This document shows positions 59,171-61,680 of a stretch of DNA of 64,000 nt, in pieces (the stretch's first letter is position 1; the number at the start of each line of letters is the position of its first letter). The stretch spans positions 1 through 64,000 of the forward strand of contig CALWUW010000028.1 of assembly GCA_944384815.1 (NCBI GenBank), in the 5' to 3' direction. A model generated the notes under the pieces. That model saw nothing but the letters and a program-made list of their open reading frames with translations. It was not told the DNA's origin and made no database searches. This stretch comes from an uncultured Clostridia bacterium (GTDB lineage Bacteria; Bacillota; Clostridia; Oscillospirales; Acutalibacteraceae). Both the position numbers and the translations under genes were made by a program.

Positions 59171-59920
59171 ATGTCCGGACATTCGAAATGGAACAACATT
59201 AAAAGAAAAAAGGAAAAAACAGATGGTGCGAAGGCCAAGATTTTTACCAAAATCGGTCGCGAATTGGCAGTAGCGGTAAAGGAAGGCGGCGGGCCGGATC
59301 CTGCTTCCAACTCGAAACTGAAGGACTGCATCGCCAAGGCGAAGGCTGCTAATGTACCGAACGATAATATTGAAAGAATTATCCGTAAGGCGGCCGGAGA
59401 TAACGATGGTGCGAAATATGAGAATATTACCTACGAGGGATATGGTCCCAGCGGTGTGGCCGTTATCGTGGAGACATTGACGGATAACCGAAATCGTACG
59501 GCGGCGGATGTGCGTCACTATTTTGATAAATTCGGCGGCAATTTGGGAACGACGGGATGTGTTTCCTTCCTTTTTGAAGAAAAAGGCGTCATTGTTATTG
59601 AAAAAGAAGGCTTGGATGAGGATAAGGTAATGGAGGATGCGCTGGAAGCAGGAGCCTCCGATTTCCAGGCGGATGAAGACGTATTTGAAATCTCAACTTT
59701 GGCGGATGATTTCAGTGGTGTTCGGGAAGACTTGGAAGCAAAAGGATATACCTTCGTTTCCGCAGAAGTAGAGATGGTTCCTACCACATATACGGCGCTG
59801 GCAGATGAAGAAACACAGACAAAGATGCAGAAACTTCTGGACGCTTTGGAAGATAACGACGACGTTCAGAATGTCTGGCACAACTGGGATGCGCCGGAAA
59901 GCGATGATGAAGAAGACTGA
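59171..59920 (+). CDS. yebC: YebC/PmpR-family regulator
   Basis: This 249-residue protein of the YebC/TACO1 family starts [19 protein letters not shown] and has [20 protein letters not shown] and [14 protein letters not shown]. Family members were described as transcriptional regulators. More recent work links them to translation of polyproline stretches on the ribosome. The length and all three domains are normal. AGGAGG precedes ATG 59171. The PASTA pseudokinase gene follows after 35 bases and may be cotranscribed. Confidence 0.9.
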
Positions 59921-59955
59921 ATCCTGCTGCTTTGCAGCAATCGGGAGGGAAAACC

Positions 59956-61635
59956 ATGGCTGAATTTGATCAACTGTGTATGAACTGTATGGCTCCTATG
60001 AATGGAAAATCGGTGTGTCCGGTGTGCGGCCATTCGGCGGAAGAGCCCCAGTCCGTCAATGCTTTGCCCTACCGTACTTTGCTGCAGAATCGTTACATGG
60101 TAGGTAAGGTAAAATCTTGCAACAGCGAAGGAATCACGTACATTGGATATGATACGATCCTTCGCACTCCTATTGAACTGCGAGAGTTTTTTCCTGCCAC
60201 ACTTTGCAGCCGGGTTTCGCCCGTGGAACTGAGGGCAAACAACGGCAGCGAGGTGACATACGATGAATGTCTTTCCAGCTTTTTGAGCTTTTCCAGAGAA
60301 ATTGCTCATTTTCGGCAGCTTCCTGCCGTTCCCCAACTGTATGACATTTTTGAAGAAAATAACACAGCTTATACCGTGGCGGAACGGGTGGAATCTATTA
60401 CCCTGCGCTATTTTGTGGAAAGAAGCGGGGGAACTGTGGCGTGGAATGCCGCCCGGCAGCTTTTTATGCCGGTGCTTTCTGCTTTGAGCACACTGCATTC
60501 TGCGGGAATCAATCATCTGGGGATTTCTCCGGAAACATTGATCATCGGAAAAGATGGAAGAATGAAGTTGAGCGGTTTTTCGATTCCGGCGGCCCGTGTT
60601 GCCGGCAGAGAGATTCCGGCCGACCTTTATCCCGGATGTGCAGCTCCGGAGCAGTATGATGGGAATCAGAGCGTAGGGGAAGCAGCAGATGTGTATGCGT
60701 TTACGGCCTGTCTGTTTTTTGCCCTTACCGGTATTTTGCCTCAGGCGGCTCCAAAACGTCTGGAGGATCCGCGGCTTCTGCTTCCCAGCACTTTGCTGAG
60801 AAGCATTCCGCCCCATGTGGTAGGAGCAATGGCTAACGGGCTGCAGGTCTCTGCGCAGCGGCGTACAGGAACGTTTGAAAAACTTCGCGCGGAGCTTTCC
60901 GCTTCTCCTACCGTTACGATAGAGACAGCCAGCCTGCATGCGGTGCCGCCTACTTATCCGGCTCAGAGTTCACCTCAAGATGACAAAAAGGGAAGCATGC
61001 CGCCTTTTATGTGGGGGCTGATTTCCTGTGTCTGTTGTCTGATTGTTTTAGCTGTGGTAGGAGTGATTTGGCTTTCTGCCTCTAATGGAACACAGGTCGT
61101 TTCTTCAGAACCTGAGGATGTTTCCTCCTTGTCTTCTCAGGAGGAAAGCAGCCAACTATCCAGCGTGCTTTCAGAAGATCCTAATATGATTGACGTTCCC
61201 AATTTGGTAGGGAGCAAATATGAGGAAGTGGCTTCTCAGATAGAATCCAATGAAAACTACCAAATCCTTTCTGCTGCCAACAAACAGTTTAGTGATACGG
61301 TTCCGGAGGGATATATTATTTCGCAGACGCCGGAAGCCGGAGAAGGGGCAAAGATGAAAAAAGGGACTGCCATTGTGGTAGTGGTCAGTCAAGGTCCGGC
61401 CATCCGCGCCTTGCCGGAAGTGGCCGGATTGGATTTAGTAGCGGCTTCTACCGCTGTGACGGATGCCGGTTTTATTCCCACTAAGATCGAGGAATACAGT
61501 GATACTGTGCCTAAAGGTCTGGTAATTGGATATCAAAATGTAAAACCGGGGGATACGATGGCGTATGGTTCTCAGGTGGTTTTGATCGTCAGCAAAGGGA
61601 AGGAGCTTCCCTATATGGCTTCCGCAGGGGAATGA
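59956..61635 (+). CDS. membrane-anchored PASTA protein with zinc ribbon and inactive kinase domain
   Basis: This 559-residue protein has a zinc ribbon (C8, C11, C21, C24), a protein-kinase-like domain (about residues 44-310), a membrane segment (about 350-373), a Ser-rich linker, and two PASTA domains outside the cell (about 412-479 and 480-552). The kinase lacks every key residue: the Gly loop is GKVKSCNSEG, the ATP-binding Lys is R76 (IELREFFP), HRDxKxxN reads HLGISPET (G189, S191, T194) and DFG reads GFS (207-209). The APE-type motif AAPEQY and DVYAF are kept, so the fold should stand. It likely senses muropeptides or lipid II and signals without phosphotransfer. ATG 59956 follows GGGAGG. 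Confidence 0.82.
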   Translation: MAEFDQLCMNCMAPMNGKSVCPVCGHSAEEPQSVNALPYRTLLQNRYMVGKVKSCNSEGITYIGYDTILRTPIELREFFPATLCSRVSPVELRANNGSEVTYDECLSSFLSFSREIAHFRQLPAVPQLYDIFEENNTAYTVAERVESITLRYFVERSGGTVAWNAARQLFMPVLSALSTLHSAGINHLGISPETLIIGKDGRMKLSGFSIPAARVAGREIPADLYPGCAAPEQYDGNQSVGEAADVYAFTACLFFALTGILPQAAPKRLEDPRLLLPSTLLRSIPPHVVGAMANGLQVSAQRRTGTFEKLRAELSASPTVTIETASLHAVPPTYPAQSSPQDDKKGSMPPFMWGLISCVCCLIVLAVVGVIWLSASNGTQVVSSEPEDVSSLSSQEESSQLSSVLSEDPNMIDVPNLVGSKYEEVASQIESNENYQILSAANKQFSDTVPEGYIISQTPEAGEGAKMKKGTAIVVVVSQGPAIRALPEVAGLDLVAASTAVTDAGFIPTKIEEYSDTVPKGLVIGYQNVKPGDTMAYGSQVVLIVSKGKELPYMASAGE

Positions 61636-61641
61636 ACATTT

Positions 61642-61680
61642 AAAAGCAGGAGACAGAAAAATGTTCTCCTGCTTTTTATT
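61642..61680 (+). terminator. terminator after the PASTA gene
   Basis: AAAAGCAGGAGA (61642-61653) pairs with TCTCCTGCTTTT (61665-61676), 12 bp with an 11-base loop, followed by a T-run. Confidence 0.88.

Follow-up and report, generated by a model that had tools for sequence, protein, structure and literature searches.

How can a receptor with the fold of a serine/threonine kinase persist when the residues of the kinase reaction are gone, and what might it do for the cell? The question is raised by the gene at 59956..61635 (+) of a 64,000-nucleotide stretch (the window) of contig CALWUW010000028.1, from an uncultured Clostridia bacterium of the family Acutalibacteraceae, order Oscillospirales (assembly GCA_944384815.1). 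The PASTA kinases of Gram-positive bacteria are well known as sensors of the wall, and the way in which they read it is a matter of continuing debate. The window protein combines PASTA domains with a kinase domain that lacks the catalytic residues and with an N-terminal CxxC ribbon. Its family is a PASTA-bearing pseudokinase family, probably of ribbon-kinase ancestry. The parts of the gene are as follows.

59956..61635 (+): whole gene, a 559-residue pseudokinase receptor (open reading frame, translation and Pfam)
59977..60027 (+): CxxC-x9-CxxC ribbon, residues 8-24 (pattern in 95 of 96 homologues)
60088..60900 (+): kinase-fold domain, residues about 45-315 (Pfam Pkinase, AlphaFold2, and Foldseek to PpkA and PknB)
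60115..60135 (+): degenerate Gly loop, residues 54-60, SCNSEGI, with an acid at 58 (alignment)
60181..60183 (+): beta3 Lys position, here R76 (column in 96 homologues: R 68, H 16, K 9, Q 2, C 1)
60289..60291 (+): alpha-C Glu position, here F112 (Glu in 0 of 96 homologues)
60514..60522 (+): HLG in the place of HRD, residues 187-189 (Asp column in 96: G 85, A 9, S 1, L 1)
60535..60537 (+): catalytic-loop Asn position, here T194 (column in 96: T 64, N 22, S 8, V 1, C 1)
60574..60582 (+): GFS in the place of DFG, residues 207-209 (Asp lost in 82 of 96 homologues)
61003..61080 (+): membrane helix, residues about 350-375 (helix in the full-length model, and, in 96 of 96 homologues, a hydrophobic segment C-terminal to the kinase domain)
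61192..61392 (+): PASTA domain 1 (Pfam)
61411..61596 (+): PASTA domain 2 (Pfam)

Six sites of the window protein carry replacements: the Gly loop (SCNSEG), the beta3 Lys (in a segment that reads IELR), the alpha-C Glu, the HRD Asp, the catalytic-loop Asn and the DFG Asp. A sequence-only reading of the window had reported five of these losses, together with the survival of the AAPEQY and DVYAF motifs. Both observations hold in the alignment, where APEQY and DVYAF are kept and the loss of the alpha-C Glu is added to the list. Judged by its residues, the protein is almost certainly inactive by the ordinary kinase route. The ribbon cysteines are spaced C8-x2-C11-x9-C21-x2-C24. Pfam finds PASTA in two stretches (E 3.8e-22) and Pkinase at E 2e-11. 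Since the kinase model exceeds its cut-off, automatic annotation could label the gene a kinase. A defence-system reading was rejected, since the 30 PADLOC matches (best 25 listed; top PD-T4-6, E 3e-30) are generic to kinase and PASTA domains.

The homologues show how general these losses are. Kinase stretches were extracted from fetched loci and aligned with PrkC, the PASTA kinase of these bacteria, and with active ribbon kinases in 159 rows, from which two fragments shorter than 180 residues were dropped. The label of pseudokinase was given where the HRD Asp is absent; the 96 rows so labelled are what the searches returned, and the label has no bearing on the alpha-C Glu count. By origin, 75 belong to the window's family, counting its own genome and genus; 14 come from other families of the order (13 from family f26 and one from f23) and seven from named contigs. 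Of the 96 rows, 87 have no beta3 Lys, 82 no DFG Asp and 74 no catalytic-loop Asn. In 75 the losses of Lys, HRD Asp and DFG Asp coincide, and 55 of those are without the Asn as well. Lys and DFG Asp survive side by side in two rows, neither of which has the Asn. The aligned active ribbon kinases retain all four residues in 32/32. Two motif residues never vary among the pseudokinases (96/96): the His of HRD and the Glu of APE. PASTA, by our own profile, and a hydrophobic segment behind the kinase domain occur in every row, and the ribbon pattern in all but one. The stretch from DFG to APE is slightly shorter than in the active proteins, at 26 residues in 94 of the 96 versus 26-31 in the 32 active ribbon kinases.

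At the tip of the Gly loop the residue is acidic in 89 of the 96 rows (E 72, D 17), and the beta3 position is mostly basic (R 68, H 16, K 9); this pair may form an internal lock in place of adenosine triphosphate (ATP). Because the alpha-C Glu is never present and the Gly-loop tip is so often acidic, ordinary magnesium-ATP binding appears disfavoured. Alignment against PrkC/PknB and ribbon homologues, the check that the sequence-only reading had named, left the losses standing and placed no catalytic residues at shifted positions: across columns -3 to +7 of the HRD Asp, an acid is among the five commonest letters only at +4, and that column is Asp in 32/32 active ribbon kinases too. The same columns bear on unusual catalysis, in which the domain would perform another transferase chemistry or use nucleotide without magnesium, as SelO and SidJ do. 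The kept kinase fold, the invariant His and Glu, and the R, H or K at beta3 in 93/96 rows would suit such an enzyme. However, the HRD Asp and the alpha-C Glu are found in 0/96, 55/96 retain none of the four residues Lys, HRD Asp, Asn and DFG Asp, and no new common acid lies from -3 to +7 of the old catalytic Asp save the one shared with active kinases, so that unusual catalysis is very unlikely.

Structure prediction returned a kinase fold. The AlphaFold2 model of residues 1-330, built from 26 rows, has a predicted local distance difference test score (pLDDT) of 89.4 and a predicted template modelling score (pTM) of 0.86; the full-length model is poor in the kinase C-lobe (pLDDT 58.2, pTM 0.28). 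A Foldseek search with the 1-330 model placed PpkA first (template modelling score by target 0.80) and Staphylococcus aureus PknB next, and PpkA is also the best solved match by sequence (E 7.8e-16). By model and alignment, the kinase fold is predicted to be kept without the residues of the kinase reaction.

The gene is widespread in the window's family, where 273 of 300 genomes match the protein at E<=1e-20, including 214 of the 230 of good quality. A genome match alone is no proof of the dead state; the residue losses are established in the aligned rows. A sample of the order gave matches at E<=1e-30 in 53 of 245 genomes, and family f26 accounts for 18 of these. Thirteen of these 18 were aligned, and 13/13 lack the HRD Asp; other aligned matches of the order sample include active ribbon kinases. 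The class sample gave 18 matches in 245 genomes, and the aligned ones outside the order are active ribbon kinases without PASTA. Three same-genus pairs have ratios of nonsynonymous to synonymous substitution rates (dN/dS) of 0.10, 0.13 and 0.05 over the gene and of 0.09, 0.11 and 0.045 over the kinase part, with dS near saturation. Selection on the family is purifying. The dead kinase domain is constrained, but less than PrkC's own, because the PrkC kinase part changes more slowly in the same pair (the window genome and G001): its proportion of nonsynonymous differences (pN) is 0.033 versus 0.178 for the pseudokinase. The recurrence of the losses in 96 homologues and the low dN/dS go beyond chance and, with the 273 matching genomes, agree with the earlier proposal of a retained pseudokinase with a PASTA ectodomain; a pseudogene was rejected on the spread and the purifying selection. 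It is scarcely credible that the protein is an active kinase whose residues were missed through an alignment shift, or a pseudogene product: no supporting point was found, no residues are shifted around the motifs, the fold agrees, selection is purifying and 273 of 300 genomes of the family match.

Two further matches were seen in these searches. A contig of a viral collection (L171), which may be host DNA, carries a full-length homologue of 53% identity. In a genome without a full pseudokinase match, a 183-residue open frame (G034:C38:14828-15232) matches the PASTA end only and may be a remnant or another PASTA protein.

The ancestry of the kinase domain was examined in two midpoint-rooted trees. 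Thinning at 85% identity left 137 of 157 rows in the first; the second contained 87 rows, with the motif columns removed, thinning at 70% and nine long-branch rows (four of them pseudokinases) left out. The pseudokinases fall on one branch in both, with a Shimodaira-Hasegawa-like approximate likelihood-ratio test (SH-aLRT) support of 99 in the 137-row tree and support of 100/99 in the 87-row tree without motif columns. Since the 96 homologues share the losses, form one clade and are under purifying selection, the losses are not the decay of a single gene. In the 87-row tree PrkC alone forms one side of a branch with support of 100/100, and pseudokinases and PrkC are grouped in 0% of 200 bootstrap trees. 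This rules out a kinase domain derived from PrkC, and the trees point firmly to a separate descent. The earlier assignment to the kinase plan of Gram-positive PASTA kinases did not survive these bootstraps and the top match to PpkA.

The pseudokinases group with active CxxC-ribbon kinases at moderate support (73/85, and 73% of 200 bootstraps) in the 87-row tree, and this grouping is undecided in the 137-row tree as drawn. Descent from CxxC-ribbon kinases is likely on this moderate tree support, and it is strengthened by the ribbon that both groups share. The CxxC/CxxC ribbon seen by the sequence-only reading is indeed present; its interpretation as a new partner contact is not upheld, because the grouping with active ribbon kinases and the likeness to PpkA suggest that it was probably inherited from the parent group. 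These active, PpkA-like kinases of Clostridia resemble the pseudokinases in the N-terminal ribbon and in an E-[F/Y]-x-P signature after beta3, present in nearly all rows; they differ in keeping the catalytic residues, and some have Sel1, leucine-rich repeat (LRR), Big or RCC1 outer domains. PASTA is not confined to the pseudokinases among ribbon proteins, since four of the 32 active ribbon kinases (two at L125, one each at L126 and L127) carry it by our own profile, all four confirmed by Pfam. PASTA may therefore predate the loss of catalysis. Some of the active ribbon kinases at L125, L126 and L127 are unusual large receptors, with up to eight PASTA domains and Listeria-Bacteroides, Big_2 or RCC1 repeats. 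The likeness to the PrkC/PknB/Stk1 PASTA kinases (NF033483) lies in the overall plan of an inside kinase fold, one membrane segment and outside PASTA repeats; in contrast to them, the window protein scores 136.8 bits on NF033483 (cut-off 450), has the ribbon and is without the catalytic residues.

What such a protein does is less firmly indicated. Missing the residues of the enzyme and yet kept by most genomes of the family, it probably serves as a regulator or scaffold and not as a kinase. The reading we favour, to which we give about an even chance, is that of a single-origin dead family whose members sense the wall as receptors without catalysis and tune PrkC signalling or provide a scaffold for it. 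A ribbon-kinase gene would have lost catalysis once, before the split of the sampled families, and the dead gene would then have been kept as a non-enzymatic signalling part. Outside the membrane, the PASTA domains would bind wall material, as expected from their domain family; inside, the ribbon and the pseudokinase domain would hold the kinase fold without the reaction residues. Contact with PrkC, or with its substrates at the membrane, would be the most likely signalling route, and PrkC phosphorylation may be raised, lowered or redirected as the state of the wall changes. A dead co-receptor, in which an inactive PASTA receptor of other kinase ancestry senses a wall ligand and controls PrkC by pairing or by ligand competition, is proposed tentatively.

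The nearest tested precedent, likened here by its description, is Clostridioides difficile CD2148. This protein is anchored in the membrane, resembles a kinase, is missing the catalytic Asp and Asn, and acts with PrkC; unlike the window protein, it has no PASTA. In the portions of PMC8262956 and PMC9674922 drawn on here, 41 phosphoproteins depend on CD2148. Its mutant shows altered PrkC-dependent phosphorylation of CwlA: according to the authors, PrkC could phosphorylate CwlA more, the amount of CwlA at the wall falls and cell separation fails.

The genome itself contains a possible partner. A search for an active PASTA kinase, suggested by the sequence-only reading, found prpC-prkC on the same contig, about 35 kb downstream of the pseudokinase gene, and this PrkC is active-looking and accompanied by its phosphatase. 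The PASTA matches of the genome are PrkC, the window protein and a third frame of 768 residues on contig 26. In one genus (three genomes, G098, G208 and G281; loci L172-L174), the pseudokinase gene stands after rsmB-rlmN-prpC-prkC-rsgA on the same strand, with thiN between in two of them; the housekeeping genes rsmB, rlmN, rsgA and thiN are presumed to be correctly named. PrkC was found at E<=1e-70 in 80/80 near-complete genomes of the family, 79 of them over the family's cut-off, and at E<=1e-100 in 77 of 80 family genomes of a second set. The link of the pseudokinase to PrkC is indirect and no more than suggestive.

Several observations weigh against this reading. Where both genes could be placed (50 genomes), seven share a contig and one has them adjacent; in the 80 other genomes of that second set (77 with PrkC), compared by eye, 12 share a contig and two are adjacent. 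The three adjacent cases belong to one genus, and at least one such genus would arise by accident with a probability of about 13% on a rough estimate, so that adjacency to prkC is only a hint of a link. Since PrkC seems universal in the family, co-occurrence with it says little, and because several near-complete genomes (e.g. G070, G080, G110, G131 and G211) have PrkC without a pseudokinase match, PrkC does not need the pseudokinase. No PrkC was present among the aligned kinase rows from 34 flanked loci. The Lys kept in 9 of the 96 homologues and the DFG Asp kept in 14 make nucleotide binding possible in some lineages. The CD2148 authors, in the portions of PMC9674922 and PMC8262956 drawn on, do not settle whether CD2148 is a kinase.

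The same 34 loci speak to a scaffold independent of PrkC, in which the pseudokinase domain would recruit divisome or wall-synthesis proteins when PASTA meets wall material. They contain no conserved operon partner, which accords with such a role. N56, W163, R167, F170, R214 and A230 are among the residues that the pseudokinase clade conserves and that active ribbon kinases seldom have; W163 is also usual in PrkC, and the other five suggest a new surface or an internal lock. A precedent exists in EssB/YukC, where the consulted sections of PMC12599244 describe a pseudokinase domain used to build a secretion machine. On the other hand, one genus has the gene behind prkC and no candidate partner was found, and the scaffold reading is rather doubtful.

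A different fate would make the protein a substrate of PrkC that is phosphorylated behind the kinase domain and then docks an FHA protein, like MviN with FhaA after phosphorylation by PknB. By a strict pattern, 36 of the 96 pseudokinases (one of them, L031, off position) and 0/32 active ribbon kinases have an APTVT-like stretch close to where the kinase domain ends, and the genome's one FHA match is fused to an FtsW/RodA-type (SEDS) wall polymerase. With a looser pattern, 89 rows divide into 36 with both motif and FHA, 15 with FHA only, six with the motif only and 32 with neither. This raw association is lost once relatedness is controlled (six independent pairs, median p 1), and FHA-SEDS docking through the APTVT-like stretch was rejected on that account. 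Moreover, the pattern was picked after the data were seen, and the fusion was found at E<=1e-50 in 0/13 examined f26 genomes, which carry the pseudokinase; phosphorylation-dependent docking of this kind is improbable. The fusion gene itself (L175:3487-5277 (-), contig G000:C25) adjoins a transpeptidase gene, and the matches to it span the FHA part in 51/89 rows.

The immediate surroundings of the pseudokinase gene in the window are the following.

59171..59920 (+): upstream neighbour gene, presumably YebC-like, 35 bases ahead of the pseudokinase gene
59943..59949 (+): ribosome-binding-like GGGAGGG ahead of the ATG at 59956 (direct sequence reading)
61642..61677 (+): terminator-like hairpin and T run directly 3' of the gene (-18.9 kcal/mol, z -5.36)

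Because this strong hairpin lies right behind it, the pseudokinase gene may close a short transcription unit, possibly co-transcribed with the YebC-like gene; the hairpin is absent from the list of a separate terminator pattern scan. In the 34 loci, the commonest neighbours are genes that we take to be YebC-like (7, as the upstream neighbour), ATP-binding cassette (ABC) transporter genes (7, scattered) and pheA-like (5).

Among described bacterial pseudokinases, MviN (ActPs3) of Actinobacteria is presumably without PASTA. In the consulted sections of PMC12599244, from which it is compared by description only, MviN shares degraded kinase motifs, membrane location and a part in wall biology with the window protein; it occurs in Actinobacteria and is marked by a hallmark activation-loop deletion. 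In the present pseudokinases the DFG-to-APE stretch is slightly shorter than in active ribbon kinases. The DYD pseudokinases described there are likewise membrane-associated, occur in Firmicutes and Actinobacteria, have Arg for the beta3 Lys and are without the alpha-C Glu; they keep the HRD and/or a DFG-like (DYD) motif, whereas the window protein has HLG and GFS. The descriptions of ActPs1, GLW, CP1 and DLHK in the same sections do not appear to match the window protein. Two other kinase-like genes of this genome were noted. A 235-residue protein (L002:1381-2088 (-), equal to G000:C3:10375-11082), with Arg at beta3, HRD and Asn kept and DYD for DFG, resembles the DYD pseudokinases of PMC12599244 as described in those sections. 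A 630-residue kinase with leucine-rich repeats (G000:C20:32265-34157; L003, L170) has CRD for HRD and DLG for DFG.

Among the titles and abstract openings listed by searches of open papers, none describes a PASTA or ribbon pseudokinase in Clostridia. PASTA occurs once in the 2025 review PMC12599244, in a reference title, and no pseudokinase family described in its consulted sections matches. The present family adds a bacterial pseudokinase family beyond those in these sections. As a receptor able only to bind and to make contact, a dedicated inactive PASTA protein would be a natural experiment. If the tentative dead co-receptor proposal is true, wall signalling in this family of Clostridia would run through a pair of receptors, one active and one inactive.
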